Source of the DNA: a virus
Virus record (IMG/VR): IMGVR_UViG_3300044684_000161
Location: 26,103-90,102 of that record
Reading direction: 5' to 3' (one strand)
Length of the DNA: 64,000 bases
The position numbers and the translations under genes were made by a program. How positions within the stretch are numbered: position 1 is the stretch's first letter; every line of letters starts with the position of its first letter. The notes under the pieces were generated by a model that saw nothing but the letters and a program-made list of their open reading frames with translations, had not been told where the DNA came from and did not search any database. Shown here one piece after another: positions 5,233 to 60,359 of this stretch.

Positions 5233-8200
5233 ATGCTCATCTTCTTCAGTAAAGCTACCCCGCCGCAGGTCAACATGCCTGTGCATGTTGCCGGCACAGT
5301 CCGGAAAGACGGAACGATTGTCAAACCGCACATGCGCATGCAGCGTGTCTCTCTCCACGCCACCCAGCCCCCAACGCCTGCCGCTGCGGCTCCCAAGTCG
5401 CCAGAGCGCAAGCCGGGAAAGCTCGATTCGTTTCTGGAAAAACACGGCGGTGAGCAGAGGTTCCGAGCATCCCTTCTGGATATGAAACCCGAGCAGCGGG
5501 CTAAACTGATCGATGCAATGGCGCATATCGACGGTATCGAGCCGTCCGGCGTTATGGAGCGCCTTGGGCTACATGCTTCCGACTTGAAGGAGGGTGATCC
5601 CGATGGATCGGGGGCTCATGAGATCGTCGAGCACATCACGCGCAAGGGGAAGACGCTGCGAGGTGTGATCCGGCGAGATCTCTCTCAGGATGAAGCCAAG
5701 CAGATCGACGAATATACCTTCCGCAAGGATGGCGGTTGGTTCATTCGAGAGAAGCACCTGGAGACGGCGGCGAAACTGGACGCCGCGCGCCATGCCGGCA
5801 TCATTGACGACGCGCAGCACGAAACTGCACGAGCGGCGGCGGCCAAGGATGGGCCATCCGGGGCGCTCGGCGCGCTACAGCAACAACCGTCTCCCAATGA
5901 GCCGTCTCATCCTATCGAGTCAGCGGCGCCAGCGGATCGTCCCAAGGAGCAGGCCGACAAACTGCGAGAGGCTGGCGAGAAGCTGAAGGCTGCGGCAGAA
6001 GCTGATCTAGGGCGTGACCGGCTGGCGAATACGGCGCGACGCGCGCGCATGGCTGCCGGCGCAGAAGCCGACGCCAGCCAGCGGCTCTCGATCGCCGGTA
6101 CGATGATCAATCTCGCCGATGCAATCGAGGCTGGTGATGCGCGGCATCTGAAGGGCATTACTACACGTGCGGCGGTCGAAACGCTGGATGGAATGGTGCG
6201 TCGCGCCGTGCGCGAGACGGATCGGCATCTACCATATATCGAACAACGGGCCCGCGAAGGACGGTCTCCGGAGCCAGATGACATTCGGAATGCGAGGCTG
6301 CCGAGGTTTAGCGTACACGGCAACGTGGCGGCTGATATCGCGGAGAAACTGCGCGGCGTGAAGGGTGCCGCGAAGCTTTCGGGATGGGCATATCGAATTT
6401 CGGAGCGCGTGGGCCGCGACGCGGTTGCCACGCTACCAGATGATGACGCCGAGACAATCCGCGCCGTTTTCAAAAAGCTCGCCGACATGGGCGAGAAGCA
6501 TATGGGGTGGGATTTGCGCGAAACGCTTGCCGTGCGTGACCGTCTCGCGCGGGCCGGCATCACGAGCGACCGCGACCTGCGCTTGGCTCTGACCGAGTAC
6601 CTGATTTTCCGGGATGGTCCCAAGAAGGCCGATCCGATCAAGGAAGCGGAGCGTGTTCTCGTCGGCCAGAAGGTTGGCGTCGATTTCTTCCCGACGCCGA
6701 AGCCGCTCGCCGCGAAGATGGCCGAGTTGGCCGGCGTCAAGCCTGGCATGACCGTACTTGAGCCGTCGGCGGGCAATGGGCATCTAGCAGATGCGGCGCG
6801 GGATGCTGGTGCGCAGGTCGATACGGTCGAAGTTTCCGATGCGCTGCGCAATGTGTTGCACGCTAAAGGTCACAACATCGCCGGGCACGACTTCGACACG
6901 TTCGAACCGGGCAAGCAATACGACGCGGTCATCATGAATCCGCCGTTCTCCGACCGGCGCGATGCGGCACATATCATGCGCGCCTATGACTTGCTTAAGC
7001 CCGGCGGCAAGCTGGTGGCGATCGCGGGCGAAGGCGTGTTCTTCGGCTCGGATCAGAAGGCGCAGACGTTCCGCGACTGGCTCGATGAGCGCGGCGCAGA
7101 GGTGGAGAGGCTTCCAGAAGGCACGTTTAAGGGCTCCGACCTACCGGCGCAGACGGGAGCGAACGCGCGGCTGATCGTCGTGGAGAAGCCGGCGCATGTT
7201 GCGGCCGCTCCTGTTCAGGAATCTGCTCCGTCCATGGAACGTGAACAGCCTTCCATTCATGAACAAGGCCCAAAGGAAGGCGAGACCAAATTCGAAAACG
7301 GCGTCGAATACGTGCTGCGCGACGGGCGCTGGCATCGGGCGCACGAGGATCAAGCGGACGAACGCGGCGCAGTGAGCGATGCGGTGCTTGAGGATGTCGG
7401 GCTGTTGCGAGAATTCGGTGGTAATTGGCAGTACAAGTTTGGCATCGACGGCAGGTGGATGACGGCAAACTCTAAGGAGGACGCCGTTTCCATTGCGACG
7501 AAAACGTACCACGAAACGCCTGAATCCGAGCGCATGACCAGGGACCAGCGCGACGCCAAGGCCGACGCAGATGAGTACGAGGATCTTCACCGCCGATATG
7601 GTCATCTGTCGGTCGACGATCTGCGCGATCGGCACGAAAAGATGGGCGGCGAAATTGAAGGACTGCAAGCCGCTGGCCGTCGTGAGTTCAATGGCGGTGG
7701 CCGCAGGACGAGCGCGGCCGTCAGCGCGCAGGGTGCGCGTGATGTTTCGGAGGAGCGATCGAAGCTCGATCGTTATATCGAACGTCGCGCTGCTGATGAG
7801 GCTGCTGCGCCGGTGCGAGATGCAGAGTCCGATCTCGCAAGCGATCGCGAAGAACTCGCGACCGAGCTCGCGCGTGATCCGCATAGCGAGCCCGCGAAGG
7901 AAGCCGTGCGCAAAGTGGGCCGGCGCGTCGCGGAAGACGAGGAGCCGGTCTCGGCGCTTGACGAAGACGACCCGAACAGCCCGAACTACCGGTATGCCGA
8001 TACCGGATACGTCGCTGGCTCGCGCAAGGAACTTGCCGCATCTCAGGTGATCAAGAGTGCCAAGCAGGAGGGTGCGCGCGTCTACGCGACCGCAATCGAC
8101 TGGGATCAGCTTGAGCAGAATCCGCGCGAAGCCAAGGACCTGATCACGAAGTCGAACTTATTTGGCGAAGTGGACTGGCCCGCGCTGCGCGCAGCCGGCA

Positions 8201-25345: not shown

Positions 25346-26213
25346 CCTGCGCTGGGGCCGCGTCGCGGCGATTCATCCTGAAGACTACTCAGTCGACTTA
25401 GTCATGACCGATGACGGCTCGCAGCTTGCCGGCGTTCAAGTGCTTACGCCTCATGCGAGCACGAACAGCGGCTCAAATTGCCTGCCTCAACCATCGACGC
25501 CGGCGAGTGGCAACGTATGGGACTTGACCGAGGCGACTGACCGCGACGTGCTCGCTGGCGTGGCATTCTTTGGGCAATACCCGGTCGTCATCGGCTTTCG
25601 GTATCCCCAGGTCTGTCAGATGCTATTCACTGACCTGCAGCGCGCGATCAACCGGCATCCGTCCGATTTCTATACGTCGACCGACGCGGCGGCCAACTTC
25701 GAGGCGTACCATCCGAGCGGCACGTATTTCCGCATCGGCGCATCGTCTGCACACGAAGACCTGACGGGCAAGGACTTCGACGGTAACTGGAAGATCACGA
25801 AGAACACATCGAGCGCGCCGCACGTGCATCTGACGGTCGCCAATGCGGGTTCACCCGTGGCAAGCGTCGACATCGATTCGAACGGAAACGTCTCGCTCCA
25901 GTGCAACGGCAATCTGTCGGCGACGGTCGGCGGCAACGTGACGGCCAACGTTCAGGGCACCGTCACGGGGACCGTGCAAGGCGCGGTAACGCTCAATGCA
26001 TCAGCGGGAACGACGATCAATGGTCCTCTCACCGTGAATGGACTCTTCACGTTCACGAAAGGCATGGCGGGTTCGGGTGGGACTGGCTCGACGGCGACAA
26101 TCACCGGCAACGTCACGGTCACGAGCGGCGAAGTGACGGTCGACGGCATTGGCGTGAAGGCGCACCATCACGACGATCCGCAGGGCGGTGAGACGAGTGC
26201 CGCGCGAGCGTAA
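25338..26213 (+). CDS. Baseplate central spike (gpV-like) with a metal-binding tip
   Basis: A 291-residue protein. Residues 1-95 form an OB-like domain (RWGRVAAIHPEDYSVDLVMT), and residues about 165-270 are beta-helical repeats rich in Gly/Thr/Val (LSATVGGNVTANVQGTVTGT). The end is VKAHHHDDPQGGETSAARA, with His276-278; P2 gpV and phi92 spikes coordinate iron through an HxH motif near the tip, so the same is expected here. The trimeric spike pierces the outer membrane. Confidence 0.85.
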   Translation: MASLRWGRVAAIHPEDYSVDLVMTDDGSQLAGVQVLTPHASTNSGSNCLPQPSTPASGNVWDLTEATDRDVLAGVAFFGQYPVVIGFRYPQVCQMLFTDLQRAINRHPSDFYTSTDAAANFEAYHPSGTYFRIGASSAHEDLTGKDFDGNWKITKNTSSAPHVHLTVANAGSPVASVDIDSNGNVSLQCNGNLSATVGGNVTANVQGTVTGTVQGAVTLNASAGTTINGPLTVNGLFTFTKGMAGSGGTGSTATITGNVTVTSGEVTVDGIGVKAHHHDDPQGGETSAARA

Positions 26214-37313: not shown

Positions 37314-37493
37314 CTACTCACGTTCGACGGTCCAGCCGTCCGGCGTTCGCTCTCGATCCGTTTCGGGGTTCTCCTTGAGCCGACGCATCGCGGCGCTCAC
37401 GTCGAGGAGAGGAACATTGCGTTCCGTGACGCCACCGGTGATGAGCTCGCCGTCAGCATCAAGGACACGATACGTCACAGGTGCGACGATCAT
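37314..37493 (-). CDS. Small protein coupled to the integrase (59 residues)
   Basis: ATG 37493 overlaps the integrase stop (ATGA) and has a strong GAGGAGG eight bases upstream. The sequence (MIVAPVTYRVLDADGELITG, then ERNVPLLDVSAAMRRLKENP) is protein-like and ends WTVERE just before the terminator. It could be a small excision or regulatory factor by position, but no HTH was recognised. Confidence 0.7.
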   Translation of the reverse strand: MIVAPVTYRVLDADGELITGGVTERNVPLLDVSAAMRRLKENPETDRERTPDGWTVERE

Positions 37494-38662
37494 ATAGCCT
37501 CCTCGGGCTGCCGGGCCCAGTTCTGCGTAATCACGCTGGCGACCGTATTGATTGCGCGCGCCTGATCGGTTGCGAGGCCGTGCAGGTAGCGTTCAGTCGT
37601 CGATAGCTGGCGGTGGCCGAGCATCGTCGCGACCTGCTTTTGCGTCAGGCCAGCCATATGCGCGAGCGAGCCGGCGGTGTGCCGCAGATCATGGATGCGC
37701 ATCTCCGGCGGCAACTCGGCGCGCTGCTTAATGCGCTTCCAGATGCCTTGCGGGTGCATCATGTGCTCGCCAGCAATGCGGCCCGGGATGAGCCATTTGC
37801 CTTCCTCGATGCCGTTGATAATCTCCATCGCTGCTGACGACAGGGCGATACGCCGCTGACCGACTTTGCTGTCCGGCAGCAGCAGCAGCGAGCGCTCGCG
37901 ATCGATCCATTCCTGTTTCGACGACATGATCTCGTTGAGGCGACAACCGGTGATCAGCAGCAGACGGATAAGGTCAGCCATCGACTTCATGATTTCGTGC
38001 TGCTCGACCATCTCGGTCAGCGTGGCGTCGAGGCGCTGGATCTGCTCGGGCGCAAGGATCGTCTCGCGCTCCCGGATTTTGTACTTTTTGATGTGGCGGC
38101 ACGGATTGCCATCCTTGCGCCACTTCCATAGGTCCGCAAGATTGAAGGCCTTGCTCAGCAGCGCGACGCAGGCATTCGCAGTCGCCGGGTGCTCGGACAG
38201 CGATCCCATGAGCGCCAACACATCGGCCTGTGTCACGCTGTCGACGCGCTTCTTGCCGAGTGCCGGCAGCACGTAGATGCGCCACAGTGCCTCGTCGCGA
38301 GCGACACTGCCGGCCTTCTTGAACGGCCGCGCGTGCTCCTTCATGTAGCGCTGCTCGAGATCGGCGACCGTGGGTGCTTCCTTGAGTTCGGTTTTTTCCA
38401 TCGCCGGGTCGCGGCCTTCGGCGACGGCGCCGAATATCTTGCGCGCGAGATCGCGGGCCTTGTCCGGCACGATGTCCGTGCAACGCCCGATTGTTTGCTT
38501 GCGCTGGATGCCAGCGTGTGTACGATACCGCGCGACGTAGGTTTTGCGGCCGCTGCTCTGGATGCGGACGCCGAAGCTCGGGAGTTCGTTGTCCCACAGC
38601 CACGCGTCACCCTTTAGAGGGGGCTGAGCGGCATCGACTGCGGTTTTGGTCAGCTTGGGCAT
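37490..38662 (-). CDS. int: Tyrosine-recombinase integrase
   Basis: A 390-residue integrase starting at ATG 38662 (GGAGA upstream). The N-terminal 90 residues are a DUF4102-type arm-binding domain (KTAVDAAQPPLKGDAWLWDN, GVRIQSSGRKTYVARYR), followed by a core-binding domain. Catalytic residues are visible: Arg241 in TGCRLNEI, His324 and Arg327 in HDLRH, a His in LGHRQ and Tyr359 in ERYLHG. P4-type integrases of this class usually insert at tRNA genes, and a tRNA-Leu lies 308 bases upstream. It shows that the phage is temperate. Confidence 0.92.
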   Translation of the reverse strand: MPKLTKTAVDAAQPPLKGDAWLWDNELPSFGVRIQSSGRKTYVARYRTHAGIQRKQTIGRCTDIVPDKARDLARKIFGAVAEGRDPAMEKTELKEAPTVADLEQRYMKEHARPFKKAGSVARDEALWRIYVLPALGKKRVDSVTQADVLALMGSLSEHPATANACVALLSKAFNLADLWKWRKDGNPCRHIKKYKIRERETILAPEQIQRLDATLTEMVEQHEIMKSMADLIRLLLITGCRLNEIMSSKQEWIDRERSLLLLPDSKVGQRRIALSSAAMEIINGIEEGKWLIPGRIAGEHMMHPQGIWKRIKQRAELPPEMRIHDLRHTAGSLAHMAGLTQKQVATMLGHRQLSTTERYLHGLATDQARAINTVASVITQNWARQPEEAI

Positions 38663-38689
38663 TTTGAAAGTTCTCCAGGGTGAGTGTGA

Positions 38690-38724
38690 TGCGCCCGAAT
38701 TTCCCGGGCGCAACTAGGGCGCAA
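38690..38724. repeat. GGGCGCAA repeats, putative integrase arm sites
   Basis: GGGCGCAA at 38706-38713 and 38717-38724, exactly 11 bp apart, plus an inverted TGCGCCCG at 38690-38697 that pairs with CGGGCGCA at 38705-38712. Same-face repeats next to an integrase gene are typical of arm-type sites. Confidence 0.5.
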
Positions 38725-45871: not shown

Positions 45872-45906
45872 CGGACCGAACGCTAGAGCCGCGCTTACGA
45901 GGATCC

Positions 45907-47544
45907 ATGTCGACCATTCAACTTCGCGACTATCAGCAGGTCGCTGTCGATGAAGTGCGCGCCGAGTTCCGCGCAAAAAACTTTCCGGTTCTGTTCGTCT
46001 TGGCAACGGGCGGCGGTAAAACTTACACGTTCAGTTATATCGCATCGAACGCCGCCGCGCTCGGCAACCACGTCATCATCATCGTGCATCGCAAGGAGCT
46101 ATTGCTCCAGGCCTCGGCGTCTCTACGCAATCTTGGAATAGAGCATGGGCTGATTAGCCCATTCTTCACGCCAGATCCAACGAAGCTCATTCAAGTCGCG
46201 TCGATCGATACGCTGATTCTTCGCCTTGAAAAGAGGAAGTATCCTTGCCGACTACTCATCGTTGATGAGGCCCATCACGTCGTCGAGGGCAACAAATGGG
46301 GACGTCTCCACGAAATGTTGGGGCGGCCGCCGATGCTAGGAGTTACAGCGACTCCCGTCCGAACTGATGGAAAGGGACTCGGCGAGCACGCTGCTGGCCT
46401 ATTCAAGACGATGGTGCTCGGGCCCAGCATTACCGAACTCATAGCGCGCGGGATGCTGATCAAGCCGGAAGTCTACACGTCGCTTGAGACACCGGACTTG
46501 CAGGGCCTGAAAAAGAAAAAAGACGGCGATTACAACGAACGCGAACTCGCCGCGCGCGTCGACAAACCGAAAATAACGGGTTCTGCTGTTGAGCAGTATT
46601 CGAAGATCTGCCCGGCCGCACGAGCGATCGTGTTCTGCGCCAGCATCGAGCACGCAAAGCACGTGCGCGACGAGTTCAACGCCGCCGGCTATCGCTTCGA
46701 ACTGCTCGTCGGGGCACCGCAGATGTCGGACGCCGAACGAACGGCGGTCAACAAAAAGCTGCGGCGCGGAGAGATCGACGGCGCGTGTACTGTCGATTTG
46801 GTGAGCGAGGGATACGACCTCCCGGACCTTGAGTGCTGCATCATGCTCCGGCCGACGGCATCCGAGGCTCTGTTTCTGCAGCAAATCGGGCGCGTAATGC
46901 GGCCGTCGGAGGGAAAGCGCGGCTGCTGGCTGCTCGATCACGTCGGTAACGTCGGGCAGATGATCGACGGCGAGTTCAAGGCCAAGCACGGCTTTCCCCA
47001 TTGGGAGCGCGAGTGGTCGCTCGACGGCCGCAAAAAGAAGGGGCGAGGCAAGAAGCAGGCGGACGAACCGACGATACCCGTAAAGCAATGTCCGAAGTGC
47101 TTCTTCTGTCACGAGCCCGAGCCGGCATGTCCGAAATGCGGCTATGAGTACCCGGTCAACAATCGACAGCTTGAGCAGGTCGAGGGCGAACTCCATCAGA
47201 TCACAGATGAGATGGAGGAGAAGATTCGCGCGCGCCAACGCGCCGAGCAAGGCCGCGCGCAGACGAAAGAGGCATTGATGGCGATCGGCTACTCAGAGGG
47301 CCGTGCCGATAAGGTCATCGCCGCGCGCAAGGAAAAAGAAGAACTGCGCGTCTCGCTGATTTTTGACTTGCAGGAATGGCGCAAAGAGACCGGGCAAACT
47401 CCTCTCGGCACGTTCGGCGTCGCGATCGCCGACCTCAAGCACTACAAGCCGAAGGCTTTGAAAGAACTGCGCGCGCGCTTCGACGCGCACCGCGCAGCGC
47501 ATCAATCCGCGAACCCCGAATTGGTTGAGGGCGAGCAATTCTAG
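45907..47544 (+). CDS. SF2 DEAD/DEAH helicase (RadD/YejH-like) with zinc finger
   Basis: A 545-residue helicase; ATG 45907 with GAGG upstream. ATGGGKT at 33-39, [10 protein letters not shown] (DEAH box), GVTATP, and motif [11 protein letters not shown]. After the motor domains comes [18 protein letters not shown], a zinc finger as in RadD, then a helical tail ([20 protein letters not shown]). RadD-type helicases aid recombination repair. The next gene is SSB; RadD interacts with SSB in E. coli, so joint function is likely. Confidence 0.88.
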
Positions 47545-49296: not shown

Positions 49297-52164
49297 ATGG
49301 CGAACTTGCCTTCGCACGTTATTGAACAGGCGAAGTCGAGCGGCTTGGTGCCCCTCATCGAAGGATACGGGGTCAAGCTCGCGAAACAGGGTGCGGACTA
49401 TTTCGGTTTGTGCCCGTTCCATAACGAAAAATCAGAAAGTTTTACCGTGAGGCCCGACAAGGGCTTCTATCACTGTTTTGGCTGTGGAGCTCATGGAGAT
49501 CCAATCGCGTTCGTGCGAGAGTTCGAGGGCATCGGCTTCCGCGATGCCGTGCAAAAGCTGGCTGGCGGTCTTCCGGCAGATGCGACGCCGCGCGAGAAGC
49601 GCGATATCGAACACGCGGAAACAGAAGAGTGGATTGCCATCAATCCGGTTCCGGCAAGCGCGCCGGCGCCCAAGGATGTGCTGAATCGAAAGATCGGCGG
49701 CAATTGGCAAAAACTCGTCGGCAAGCAGCGCTGGGAATACCGCAATGCTGATGGCTCGCTGATCGGCTACGTCTACCGTTTTGACAAGCCAGGCGGCGGC
49801 AAGGAGGTAATGCCGCAGGTCTATTGCACGAACCAACAGACGGGCGAGATGGAATGGCGCTGGCTGTCGTTTCCAAAGCCGCGCCCGCTGTACGGGCTCG
49901 ACAAACTGGCACGCAATCCCAATGCGCAGGTCATCGTTGTCGAAGGCGAGAAGACGTGCGACGCGGCCCAGGTTCGATTTATCGAGGCCGGTGTTCCAGA
50001 GTCCAAGCTCGTTGTCGTTTCGTGGCCCGGCGGCGGCAAAGCCGTCAAGCACGCCGATTTCTCTCCGCTGTGGGGGCGCCGCGTTGGCCTGTGGCCCGAT
50101 GCTGACCTGAAGACCTACATCGACAAGCACCCGAAGGCCGGCGAGTTGATGCCTTTTCTCGAGCAACCAGGCACGATTGCTATGCTCGACGTGTTTGAGG
50201 CGATTCGCGCTAAATGCGAAGGTGTGAAGTTCTTCGTGCCTCCGCCGGGTGTACCTGATGGCTGGGACTTGGCGGACCCGTTTCCGGATGGGTTCGACCT
50301 GCTCGCGCACGCGAAGACAGCGCGGCTCGCGGAGAATATCCACGATGAGTTCAGCGTGTCCGAGCCGGAACCTGTGCTAGTTGAGGCGCGCGCCGACGAC
50401 ATCCCGCCGTGGGAAGGGAAGCCGAATTTCCCGACGCCTGATGAGAAGGCGCGCAAACCATCCAATGAGGGCGGCTCTGATGACGGCCGTGACGACGAAG
50501 AGGACGGCCCGGCGCGCAATGGACATTTCACAATTCTCGGCTACAACCGAGGCGAGTACTTCATCTTCCAGCACGACCAAGGACAGATTCAGCGGTGCAC
50601 GAAGGGGGACTTCACCGACGCAGGCTTGATCGAGCTTGCGCCGCTTAACTGGTGGGAAGCGAATTTCTCTGGCGGCGACAAGGGCGGCATCAACAAACGC
50701 GCCGCGCAGAACTTCATCATGCGCACAGCCGAGGCGCGCGGCATCTACGACATCGGCCGCATTCGCGGACGCGGAGCGTGGATCGACGAAGGGCGCTTCG
50801 TGTTCCATCACGGGGCCCGGTTATCAGTCGATGGCGAAACGACCGATATCACGAAGATCAAGTCGCGCTACGTATACGAACTCGACGCGGATTTGCCTGA
50901 GCCGGCTGATGAGCCGTTGTCCGACGAGGAAGGCGCTCAATTGCTCGAAGTGGCGAAATCATTTCGATGGACCAAGCCAGGATCTGCGGCGCTGCTCGCA
51001 GGTTGGGTTGTCCTTGCACCGCTCTGTGGCGCGCTGAAATGGCGCCCTCACATTTGGTGTACGGGGGGCGCTGGATCGGGCAAGACAACGGTGTTGAACG
51101 AGTTCGTCCAACCGCTTATGTGCGGCATGGAGGTATTCGCGCAAGGCAATAGTTCGGAGGCCGGCATCCGACAGACGCTGCGCGCCGACGCTCGCCCGGT
51201 GCTGTTCGATGAGTCCGAGCAGAACGACGAGCGCGAAAAAAACCGCGTTCAAGCGATCATTTCGCTGATCCGCCAAGCATCGACCGAATCGCAGGCGCGC
51301 ACGTTGAAGGGCACCGCCGGCGGCGAAGCGATGTCGTTTCACATTCGCTCAATGTTCTGCCTAGCGTCGATCCAGGTGGGCTTGAAGCACCAGGCCGACA
51401 TGGAGCGCTTGACCGTCCTGGCGCTGCGCCCGAAGCGCGACGACAAGGACGCTGCAGGGACATGGGAGAAGATCAAGGCGGCACTCTACACGATCCAGCG
51501 CGATCGAAATCTGCCAGCTAAGCTGTTCCGGCGATCGCTCGATCTACTGCCGATCATCCGCGAGAACATCGAAACGTTCTCGGCTGTCGCTGCTCGTCGC
51601 TTCGGTTCCCAGCGCGAAGGCGATCAATACGGAACCTTGCTCGCAGGGACTTGGGCGCTCACTTCCAGCGCTCTCGTCACATTTCCCGAGGCCGAGGCCA
51701 TGATCGACAGCTACGACTGGTCGGAGCATGTCGAAAACAATGAGACAGACGAAGCGCAGCGTGCGCTCGCGGCGCTCATGGAGTCACACGTGCGCCTTAA
51801 CGGAATCGAGGTGACGGTGCATGAACTCGTGCGCGCAGCCGCCAATGCGCCGACGGAGGTGGTCGACCTTGCATCCCCGAAAGCCAATGCGATCCTTGAG
51901 CGCCACGGCATGAAGGTGCGTAATAACCGGCTTCTGTTCTCGAACAATTCGAACGAACTCAAACGGCTGATGGAAGGTACTTCGTTTGAGGCTGATTTGC
52001 GCGGCGTGCTTCTTCGGCTTGAAGGCGCTGACCGGTTCGGTAACCTCACGGTGAAATTCAACGGCGTCCCGGGAAAATGCATTAGCCTCCCGCTTGATCC
52101 TTTGATCGACGATGATGTCCGCTCTCCGACGATTTCATACAGTAACGAGACGGAGGAATTCTGA
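49297..52164 (+). CDS. Primase-helicase (CHC2 zinc finger, TOPRIM, DUF927-like ATPase)
   Basis: A 955-residue replication protein. Residues 39-63 are a DnaG-type CHC2 zinc finger (C39, H42, C60, C63). TOPRIM-like VIVVEGEKTCDAAQ is near 212. Residues about 560-800 form a helicase-like ATPase: CTGGAGSGKTT near 590 and VLFDESEQND (Walker B), similar to DUF927 modules. The fused domains would prime and unwind at the fork. No polymerase gene is in the window, so host or other phage enzymes elongate. The stop shares a base with the next ATG. Confidence 0.9.
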   Translation: MANLPSHVIEQAKSSGLVPLIEGYGVKLAKQGADYFGLCPFHNEKSESFTVRPDKGFYHCFGCGAHGDPIAFVREFEGIGFRDAVQKLAGGLPADATPREKRDIEHAETEEWIAINPVPASAPAPKDVLNRKIGGNWQKLVGKQRWEYRNADGSLIGYVYRFDKPGGGKEVMPQVYCTNQQTGEMEWRWLSFPKPRPLYGLDKLARNPNAQVIVVEGEKTCDAAQVRFIEAGVPESKLVVVSWPGGGKAVKHADFSPLWGRRVGLWPDADLKTYIDKHPKAGELMPFLEQPGTIAMLDVFEAIRAKCEGVKFFVPPPGVPDGWDLADPFPDGFDLLAHAKTARLAENIHDEFSVSEPEPVLVEARADDIPPWEGKPNFPTPDEKARKPSNEGGSDDGRDDEEDGPARNGHFTILGYNRGEYFIFQHDQGQIQRCTKGDFTDAGLIELAPLNWWEANFSGGDKGGINKRAAQNFIMRTAEARGIYDIGRIRGRGAWIDEGRFVFHHGARLSVDGETTDITKIKSRYVYELDADLPEPADEPLSDEEGAQLLEVAKSFRWTKPGSAALLAGWVVLAPLCGALKWRPHIWCTGGAGSGKTTVLNEFVQPLMCGMEVFAQGNSSEAGIRQTLRADARPVLFDESEQNDEREKNRVQAIISLIRQASTESQARTLKGTAGGEAMSFHIRSMFCLASIQVGLKHQADMERLTVLALRPKRDDKDAAGTWEKIKAALYTIQRDRNLPAKLFRRSLDLLPIIRENIETFSAVAARRFGSQREGDQYGTLLAGTWALTSSALVTFPEAEAMIDSYDWSEHVENNETDEAQRALAALMESHVRLNGIEVTVHELVRAAANAPTEVVDLASPKANAILERHGMKVRNNRLLFSNNSNELKRLMEGTSFEADLRGVLLRLEGADRFGNLTVKFNGVPGKCISLPLDPLIDDDVRSPTISYSNETEEF

Positions 52165-52838: not shown

Positions 52839-54050
52839 TCAGGCGGCCCACGATACCCAGTTCGCCGCTGGGGCCGCGCGCGGCTCGTCTACGTTCACCG
52901 GCATGCTGAACGTAATCCCATGCACCGGGTGGGTAATCCAGAGCGCTTGACGCGGCGGCTCGAAGCCGAAGTTGTTCGAGAAGGCGTACTCGTCGTATCC
53001 CTTCAGCGAGCCGTTGACGATGAGACGTTGCAATTGGATCAATTGATGCCAGTGACCGAGCAGCATCGTGTCATAGCTGGCCCCGATCTGCGTCTGACGA
53101 CTACGCTTTTTGTGGTCGCCTCGGATGATAGGCCCAAGCGCGCCGATCATGCCATCGCCGCCGCGAAATTGATCACCATGCGTGAGCAGATAGCGATGTT
53201 CGAAAACCTTGTAGATCGCATCCGGGCCATTCGGAATGAGGAATGAGATGCGTTTGTCTTGCTCGAACCGCTTGGCGAGGAAGCAATAGAGCAACCAATC
53301 GAACGAAGTGTAATTGCGCCCCTTCGCCCGGATTTTGTGTGTGTTGCGGCCGTGGTTGCCGGATACACACGGCACGAAGACTTTCCCAAACCGATCTGCC
53401 AGGGTTTCGATGCACCAACACAACACGCCAAACAGATCAAGCACCGTTGGCATGATCTCGACCTCATTGGTCGCCATCAACTCTTCGTGGATATCGCCCG
53501 ACACGAGGTCTCCACCGAGGGCAAATACGATACCCGGATAGGTCGGATTGACCATATGGTTGTTGAGGAGATTGATCGCTGTCTCGATCAATCGGCGCGC
53601 CCGGCGATGCGCTATTTCAAGATTGTATTCATTCACACCGTTGATTTGCAGTGGATCGACGACCTCCGCCCAATGCCAGTCAGATGCGAATAGGGTGGGG
53701 ACGCCTGGAGCATCTTTGGCGAACCGCTTCGGCACAAGCCATTTTGGCGGCTCTACAGATTCGGCTACCAGCTTTAGAATTTTTCGCTTTACGTATTCTT
53801 CGTCTAGCGCTTCCTGTCGGGCAGAGGAAATTGCGGACCTTAATGTGCGAACTTCACTCTCGAGTTCGGCAAGTCGACCAGGGTCATTTGATTGTGCCGG
53901 GCTTTCGACGAGCGCCGACTGCATCCCCATCTTCTTCATCCGGCGCAGGCACCAGGAACTGTCTATGCCGAGATCGCGGGCCGTTGCTCGATGGTCGTAG
54001 TTGTTCTTGCGCGTGGCCGCTTCGAATTGTTCGTCTGAAATTGTAGGCAT
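52839..54050 (-). CDS. Metallophosphoesterase with an N-terminal HTH
   Basis: A 403-residue protein, start ATG 54050. Residues 1-45 (FEAATRKNNYDHRATARDLG, IDSSWCLRRMKKMG) are a helix-turn-helix, followed by a short coiled coil. Residues about 120-380 hold the calcineurin-like metal motifs: LFASDWHWAE, GGDLVSGD, VSGNHGR, LTHGDQF and LLGHWHQL. This suggests a nuclease or phosphodiesterase (SbcD/Mre11-like fold) targeted to DNA by the HTH. Leftward gene with its own promoter-like element and inverted repeat. Confidence 0.82.
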   Translation of the reverse strand: MPTISDEQFEAATRKNNYDHRATARDLGIDSSWCLRRMKKMGMQSALVESPAQSNDPGRLAELESEVRTLRSAISSARQEALDEEYVKRKILKLVAESVEPPKWLVPKRFAKDAPGVPTLFASDWHWAEVVDPLQINGVNEYNLEIAHRRARRLIETAINLLNNHMVNPTYPGIVFALGGDLVSGDIHEELMATNEVEIMPTVLDLFGVLCWCIETLADRFGKVFVPCVSGNHGRNTHKIRAKGRNYTSFDWLLYCFLAKRFEQDKRISFLIPNGPDAIYKVFEHRYLLTHGDQFRGGDGMIGALGPIIRGDHKKRSRQTQIGASYDTMLLGHWHQLIQLQRLIVNGSLKGYDEYAFSNNFGFEPPRQALWITHPVHGITFSMPVNVDEPRAAPAANWVSWAA

Positions 54051-58702: not shown

Positions 58703-59365
58703 TCAGGCAGTGCGGGTGATGCGGTGTGGGGTGGTAGGGCGCCACGGCTCAATCTCGGTGACTGAGAATTTCCGCCCCAAACGACGGCCGTGGTAAAAGC
58801 AGCGCTGCTGCAAATTGACCCGCATTGGCTCGACCTCGAACGGCACAACGAATGATTCACCGATCTCCAATTGATCGAACGGATACTTCGTTTTATATGG
58901 CTGTGGCGTCCATTCTATGTCGCGTGTCTGAGCAGGAATGTTCGGCGATGACACGGCTTCAGGATCAAGTCGAATCACGGTCATTCCGGTGATTGAACTG
59001 CGGCAACTGAGTTTCCAGCCGTGCCGCCTCGCGAATCCCTTAGCCGCTTGTCGCACTCGGTCACGTTCCCTCGGCGAAGCGGGAACTGTCATCGACTCTC
59101 CGACGCGCAGCGAACGAAAGTTGTACTTTGACTCACGCATATCCTCGCCATCACCAACATCAGATCGAGGGCGTGGCGTGCGCGTGATGATGAGGTACGT
59201 CCCATCATAGACAGAATCGAACTTGGTTTGCCGAGCGCGCCCCATCTTGCGTAGGAGCGTCATCGCCGATGGGACGACGCCACCGCCCATCTTCACCTTA
59301 TCGGTTTGACCAACCTCAAGTTTGCCGGCGATTCGTCGGATCAATACGGTTAATTCAGTGTTCAT
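58703..59365 (-). CDS. Protein with three tandem copies of a small phage domain (DUF7303-like)
   Basis: A 220-residue protein; ATG 59365 with AAGGAC upstream. Two clear repeats of about 60 residues (YNFRSLRVGESMTVPAS... KLSCRSSITGMTVIRL and YPFDQLEIGESFVVPFE... KFSVTEIEPWRPTTPHRI) follow a weaker one (IAGKLEVGQTDKVKMGGG...). The unit, LxVGES-VP then basic helix then GxKFS strand, resembles DUF7303 of phage proteins. It faces the GGTTAC array, so it may bind there; that is inference. Confidence 0.65.
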   Translation of the reverse strand: MNTELTVLIRRIAGKLEVGQTDKVKMGGGVVPSAMTLLRKMGRARQTKFDSVYDGTYLIITRTPRPRSDVGDGEDMRESKYNFRSLRVGESMTVPASPRERDRVRQAAKGFARRHGWKLSCRSSITGMTVIRLDPEAVSSPNIPAQTRDIEWTPQPYKTKYPFDQLEIGESFVVPFEVEPMRVNLQQRCFYHGRRLGRKFSVTEIEPWRPTTPHRITRTA

Positions 59366-59834
59366 AGGTGTCCTTTGATGGATTGGCATGCTCGTAACCG
59401 CCATACGGTTACTCGCCGAGCACACGGTTTCTAATATTTTCCTTAAAAATCAAAGACGTAACCAGGAAACCGGCGTTGGCTCGGAAGGAGATTAAGAACC
59501 ACGAACACTATACCACACATATTATATTCAATTGTTGGGTATGTATGTGTAAGCAGTATTGTGTGTCTCTCCTTATATATCTATGGTTACTTGGTTACAT
59601 ATACATACAGAATCCTTATGCAGCAAGGGTTTGAGGCGGTAACCAAAGGGTAACCATGGCTCGAAATTTCGGTTACCTCGGTTACGCAAGTCATCGTGCT
59701 TCACGAGCGCTCACGACCCCTCACTTATGTTGCGTCAAAGCCACGGTAATTCTTACCTATCCAGCATTGACCGGTTGTAAGGCTTAGGCCGTCTCGTGAT
59801 ACCATTAGTCAAATACGGTTAACGAGGTCGCAAC
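59366..59834. other. AT-rich divergent gap with GGTTAC array, candidate origin or operator region
   Basis: 469 bases without a gene between divergent operons. Exact GGTTAC hexamers (either strand) lie at 59394, 59407, 59458, 59585, 59593, 59639, 59650, 59671 and 59680. GTAACCG-CCATA-CGGTTAC (59394-59412) is a perfect inverted repeat; pairs at 59585/59593, 59639/59650 and 59671/59680 are direct. CGGTTTC variants occur at 59425 and 59466, and CGGTTAA at 59347 and 59817. An AT-rich stretch (TATTATATTCAATTG, TTATATATCTATGG) separates the clusters. Iterons flanking an AT-rich segment suggest an origin; a multi-site operator is the alternative. Confidence 0.6.
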
Positions 59835-60359
59835 GTGGTCGATTACTTCGAAATGCCGGAGATTCCAGGCCGCAAGTATTTCCGGTGCGAACGACTGCGC
59901 GCAACGCTTGCTATCCCGGCGTGCGCGGGAATGTGGAAGCAGGCCAATCACGAGAACAACGAGGAGCGGCTGCGGTGCAAGTGCTGCCCTCTCGGCGCTG
60001 TGCACGCCGGTGAGACTGCGGCGTCGATGTCGCCGCTCAAAGGCACGTTGATCTGCGGGCGCTGCCACAATCGCGCGTCCCGGCTGATCGGCAAGCACCT
60101 GTGCGTGTCGTGTCAGAACAGGCAGTACGAGTGGCTGAAGGGCAAGAACGCGAAGGGCAGCAAGCCGATCAAGTTGAAGTCGCTCGAGCCGCGCACACTG
60201 CATTACCTGCACGGCCGTGATCCGCGATCGATCTACCTGCCCCTGTCGGCCGACCTCGACGAGCTCATCGTCGCCGCACTCCGCGACTCGATCAACCGCG
60301 TGCGCTTCGCGTATCACGGCGCCATGCGCGGCACGCCTCAGCAACTCAGGCTCTTTTGA
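59835..60359 (+). CDS. Multi-zinc-finger protein, putative regulator
   Basis: A 174-residue protein from GTG 59835. Cysteines are paired: YFRCERL, IPACAGMW, RCKCCPLGA, LICGRCHNR and HLCVSCQNRQYEWL, then a basic stretch (KGKNAKGSKPIKLKS) and a helical C-terminus. This looks like a nucleic-acid-binding zinc protein. It opens the rightward operon downstream of the GGTTAC array and may bind it. No known family was assigned. Confidence 0.65.
   Translation: MVDYFEMPEIPGRKYFRCERLRATLAIPACAGMWKQANHENNEERLRCKCCPLGAVHAGETAASMSPLKGTLICGRCHNRASRLIGKHLCVSCQNRQYEWLKGKNAKGSKPIKLKSLEPRTLHYLHGRDPRSIYLPLSADLDELIVAALRDSINRVRFAYHGAMRGTPQQLRLF

Follow-up and report, generated by a model that had tools for sequence, protein, structure and literature searches.

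Several phages and mobile elements begin replication at short repeats recognized by a protein of their own. In phage lambda, the O protein acts on iterons located inside the O gene, and initiation requires O, P, and the host helicase. The alpha protein of phage P4 joins primase and helicase in one polypeptide and recognizes repeats in the phage origin (ori/crr). Origins of phage-inducible chromosomal islands (PICIs), among them Staphylococcus aureus pathogenicity islands (SaPIs), are paired with Pri-Rep initiators (PMC6092414); according to a second account, the C-terminal domain of SaPI Rep reads the iterons, and the origin lies just 3' of the Rep gene (PMC7581432). In staphylococcal cassette chromosome mec (SCCmec) elements, the origin is found downstream of the Cch or Cch2 gene, and the isolated C-terminal domain of Cch2 binds the iterons (PMC7581432). 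Here we describe a related arrangement in a 64,000-nucleotide stretch of viral DNA (positions 26,103 to 90,102 of IMG/VR record IMGVR_UViG_3300044684_000161), which we call the window. An array of GGTTAC repeats in one of its intergenic gaps is very probably the replication origin of the phage and, judging from sequence comparisons, would be read by the phage's own primase-helicase.

Nine exact copies of GGTTAC fall within positions 59394-59685 (Table 1), where about 0.04 would be expected per 292 bp because 8.85 are expected in the entire window. The initial annotation had noted nine copies in about 290 bp against fewer than one by chance, arranged as one inverted pair and three direct pairs with 8-11 bp spacing between divergent genes, and all of these statements hold; from start to start, the direct pairs measure 8, 11, and 9 bp. 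The window carries 19 copies altogether, a number reached in none of 100 shuffles, and nowhere in the whole 90,102-bp record does a hexamer cluster more strongly than in the array (log10 p -12.5; the best among 25 Markov shuffles reached -7.0). Imperfect sites that fit the array motif are present at 59424 (+, CGGTTTC), 59464 (-, CGGTTTC), and 59815 (+, CGGTTAA). What had been called a run of A/T between the sites is an AT-rich stretch rather than a pure run: 42 of the 60 bases at 59521-59580 are A or T, a density matched by about 0.04% of the record's 60-mers. Such a stretch also adjoins the arrays of relatives. The layout recurs: in 50 of 53 phages, the window phage among them, the most AT-rich 50-mer is flanked by two or more sites to either side. 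Neighboring sites on the same strand most often stand 8-9 bp apart (122 of 344), compared with 11 of 160 neighbors on opposite strands. In the part of the window that lies within 20 kb of the array there is no exact DnaA box (TTWTNCACA), and the locus does not resemble a DnaA-dependent origin of the oriC type in this respect.

The position of the array is retained in related phages, while its sequence changes. Eight phages of about 90 kb, represented by nine records, encode homologs of the adjoining zinc-finger protein, and seven of the eight annotated relatives of this size carry an array in the gap before the zinc-finger gene. Conservation of the array in relatives, a check proposed initially, holds for its place but mostly not for its repeat word, which is GGTATC in PHB04, GGTAGC in ST4, GGTTAC in Dolphis and Jeremy, GTTACC in Touem01, TGTTCC in fHe-Yen8-01, TGTCAC in phiT5282EW, and GTCCCCC in one IMG/VR contig. 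The window pair GGTTACTTGGTTAC reads GGTATCTTGGTATC at the matching place in PHB04 and GGTAGCTTGGTAGC in ST4, so the word is altered at constant spacing; the Dolphis counterpart is GGTTACCTTGGTTAC. A common frame GTNNC, noted by eye, fails for some arrays (GTTTAC, GTAGT, and TTGGAAG). One relative (L002, positions 1-352) also has a second, degenerate repeat with a period of about 10 bp (agccgta/aaccgta) beside its GTCCCCC sites. No close DNA relatives of the record were found in the phage collection, and literature searches did not recover any account of such arrays in these phages.

The gene that accompanies the array most consistently encodes a primase-helicase. Among the hexamer clusters of each record, the array ranks first in 20 of the 21 phage records linked to this replication module. 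Only two proteins of the window phage, the primase-helicase and a superfamily 2 (SF2) helicase, are represented by homologs in each of the 16 relatives compared, a count that for the primase-helicase is partly true by construction because relatives were picked through either its gene or the zinc-finger gene. Phages that lack the zinc-finger gene still possess an array, often abutting the primase-helicase gene, and the distance is about 200 bp or less in phi1422, KLER1-1, Acjo_20, S-H1, and G005. A wider search of viral contigs, to which a few earlier loci were added, yielded 42 further clusters at a threshold of log10 p -9; 41 of these lie on the 3' side of the primase-helicase gene and 20 within 400 bp of it. 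Among bacterial chromosome loci, 3 of 63 had clusters below log10 p -10. Phages matched by the CHC2 zinc domain only cannot serve as a negative control, and the array is not specific to one family, because 15 of 31 such phages have strong clusters, mostly placed directly 3' of the primase-helicase gene of the phage concerned.

Several loci from these surveys differ in form. A second group of phages (L014, L018, L023, L026, L027, L035, L036, L041, L042, and L046; about 13.1-15.2 kb) has TTGGAAGG/CCTTCCAA arrays placed directly 3' of a CHC2 primase-helicase gene or a split helicase gene, and alternating GC/CA often takes the place of AT-rich DNA in the center between the two groups of sites. One locus (L263) has 24 exact copies of GTGCCA in 390 bp (7273-7663), just 3' of a gene for a 1073-residue primase-helicase. 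The 82.8-kb viral contig G002 (L179-L180) has two separate GGTTAC arrays, at 53653-54005 and 79695-80053, with alternating GC/CA centers.

A phage's repeat word and its own primase-helicase appear to vary in concert. The arrays were represented by word models, and word distance was compared with protein distance by Mantel tests on 45 phages. Words that are further apart go with greater divergence of the primase-helicase in its C-terminal part (r = 0.495, p < 0.001) and its AAA+ part (r = 0.435), and only weakly in its N-terminal part (r = 0.144). In partial correlations, the C-terminal part retains a signal given the AAA+ part (r = 0.277), and the AAA+ part given the C-terminal part gives -0.06. 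Sliding windows broadly agree, with signal only in the helicase and C-terminal half. Together, the retention of the array, its linkage to the primase-helicase, and this tracking support the suggestion in the initial annotation that iterons beside AT-rich DNA mark an initiator-dependent origin.

The predicted structure of the primase-helicase points in the same direction. Sequence searches clearly recognized its CHC2 domain, and a phage DNA primase family (phrog_35358) spans its C-terminal two thirds; the helicase half was not recognized among solved structures. An AlphaFold model of residues 400-955, made from 59 sequences (mean predicted local distance difference test score 90), was compared with the PDB using Foldseek. 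It matches the Cch helicase of SCCmec best (5dgk, E 6e-9), and the weaker matches that follow include the SaPI5 primase-helicase (7ola, E 3e-5) as well as NrS-1 and D5-type helicases. With partial overlap, these matches indicate an initiator helicase of the Rep/Cch kind.

The best reading is thus a PICI/SaPI-type origin anatomy in full-size tailed phages, displaced in the window from the initiator gene and diverging in iteron specificity. The likeness to PICI and SaPI origins consists of iteron sequences listed for each element, an initiator gene linked to the origin, and a related helicase fold (PMC6092414; SaPI work cited in PMC7581432). Unlike those elements, the phages described here are full tailed phages, the window origin and the initiator gene are separated by 7 kb, and the N-terminal part of the protein is a CHC2 (DnaG-type) primase domain. 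The window phage is not a PICI because its 90-kb record has in common with all seven phages of about 90 kb many proteins that do not belong to the replication module; it is not a small, phage-dependent island that lacks a full set of virion genes. SCCmec Cch2 differs in belonging to staphylococcal cassette elements, in pairing with a separate polymerase/primase, and in having only three AAGTG iterons (PMC7581432). The resemblance to P4 alpha and ori is one of description rather than of sequence comparison, and the repeat differs. A lambda-type origin likewise combines iterons with AT-rich DNA, whereas the window phage encodes its own primase-helicase and carries the array outside that gene.

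A plausible mechanism can be outlined on this basis. Two groups of short GGTTAC iterons flanking an AT-rich stretch would form a PICI/SaPI-like origin at 59366-59834. The C-terminal part of the primase-helicase would bind the iterons, many of which form pairs on one strand, spaced by roughly one turn of the helix. The AAA+ helicase might then form a ring as the AT-rich DNA melts, after which the helicase would load itself and the attached primase part would lay the first primers. Between related phages, the iteron word has diverged in step with the protein's C-terminal part.

Table 1. Coordinates of the candidate origin and associated features in the window
Feature	Position	Strand	Remarks
Intergenic gap, proposed origin	59366..59834		Flanked by divergent open reading frames; equivalent gap in eight annotated relatives
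GGTTAC site 1	59394..59399	-	Exact match; inverted pair with site 2
GGTTAC site 2	59407..59412	+	Exact match
GGTTAC site 3	59458..59463	-	Exact match; imperfect CGGTTTC neighbor at 59464 (-)
AT-rich stretch, candidate DNA-unwinding element	59505..59584		Densest part 59521-59580
Direct pair GGTTACTTGGTTAC	59585..59598	+	Exact match; copies start at 59585 and 59593 (8 bp)
Direct pair	59639..59655	-	Exact match; copies start at 59639 and 59650 (11 bp)
Direct pair	59671..59685	+	Exact match; copies start at 59671 and 59680 (9 bp)
Primase-helicase gene (955 residues), proposed initiator	49297..52164	+	CHC2 zinc domain, then AAA+ helicase, then C-terminal part; Zn_ribbon_DnaG, phrog_35358
C-terminal part of primase-helicase (residues 700-955), proposed iteron reader	51394..52161	+	Word divergence tracks this segment
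SF2 helicase gene	45904..47544	+	Weak RadD-like match; accompanies primase-helicase; divergence does not track repeat word
Divergent neighbor gene	58703..59365	-	Two similar segments; phrog_10287/DUF7303 profile match
Zinc-finger protein gene	59835..60359	+	CxxC zinc-binding motifs; adjoins array in phages of about 90 kb

Other readings of the array must be weighed. Many iteron origins also regulate, and an origin can double as an operator. It is nevertheless improbable that the array is solely a multi-site operator, the alternative raised in the initial annotation, at which a regulator bound to the GGTTAC sites controls the flanking divergent operons. The location between such operons and before a conserved zinc-finger gene, both in the window phage and in most relatives of about 90 kb, is what an operator would predict, but the arrays of phi1422 and G005 follow the primase-helicase gene and do not precede any fixed gene. 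Moreover, the 16 relatives have no regulator in common, only the two replication proteins. No sigma-70-like promoter was found in the gap, and no cI-like HTH_3 domain scored above the Pfam cut-off in the record, where the one subthreshold match lies outside the window. An additional operator role of the array is possible.

Less probable still is that the iterons are read by the zinc-finger protein or the SF2 helicase and that the primase-helicase acts later. The initial annotation had named the products of the two genes flanking the gap as candidate GGTTAC binders. The zinc-finger gene does adjoin the array in the phages of about 90 kb, but nine array-bearing phages lack it, which argues against its product as a general reader. 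The SF2 helicase is encoded by every relative compared, but its divergence is unrelated to that of the repeat word (r = 0.008, p = 0.45), although some SF2 copies may not be orthologs, and we rejected it as the reader on this ground. Neither flanking protein is probably the binder, and the primase-helicase is the likelier reader. Least credible is a centromere-like partition site bound by a phage segregation protein: such sites can be short direct-repeat arrays and a ParB-like gene is present in PY223, PBb001, and ZRG1, but the record, which may be incomplete, has no ParB_N domain by a search that was positive in 10 of 14 control genomes, and the primase-helicase and SF2 helicase alone are common to all relatives compared.

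Certain observations weigh against an origin read by the primase-helicase. Nearly half of the further loci have no strong cluster in the DNA examined, and the Morganella phage Mecenats66 has the primase-helicase gene and a very AT-rich gap without a significant repeat cluster; the passages covered of the Mecenats66 paper mention no array. The window array adjoins another gene and stands 7.2 kb away from that of the primase-helicase, rather than lying immediately 3' of the initiator gene. GC skew, proposed initially as a check on the origin, proved uninformative, as 20 records gave no consistent minimum or turn at the array. The fold match is partial (template modeling score 0.43 by query length). 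Finally, the correlation between word and protein is supportive rather than proof because related sequences are not independent, and ancestry was controlled only in part. Apart from these points, a frame at 37490-38713 of the window resembles a tyrosine integrase in its translation, which suggests that the phage may be temperate.

There is perhaps an even chance that PICI-type origins are a widespread class among tailed phages with CHC2 primase-helicases, and that within each lineage the iteron word and the initiator's C-terminal part change jointly. The claim that this origin layout is confined to satellites (PMC6092414) would then need revision. Most phage origins are unmapped, and one protein family together with one layout marks a probable origin in about 50 phages. 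For natural variants of the word, the matching natural variants of the proposed reader are already at hand, so swaps of the C-terminal part could test how the word changes. If the proposal is true, the specificity of an initiator for its origin would be readable from sequence, and co-infecting phages and satellites might be kept off each other's origin.
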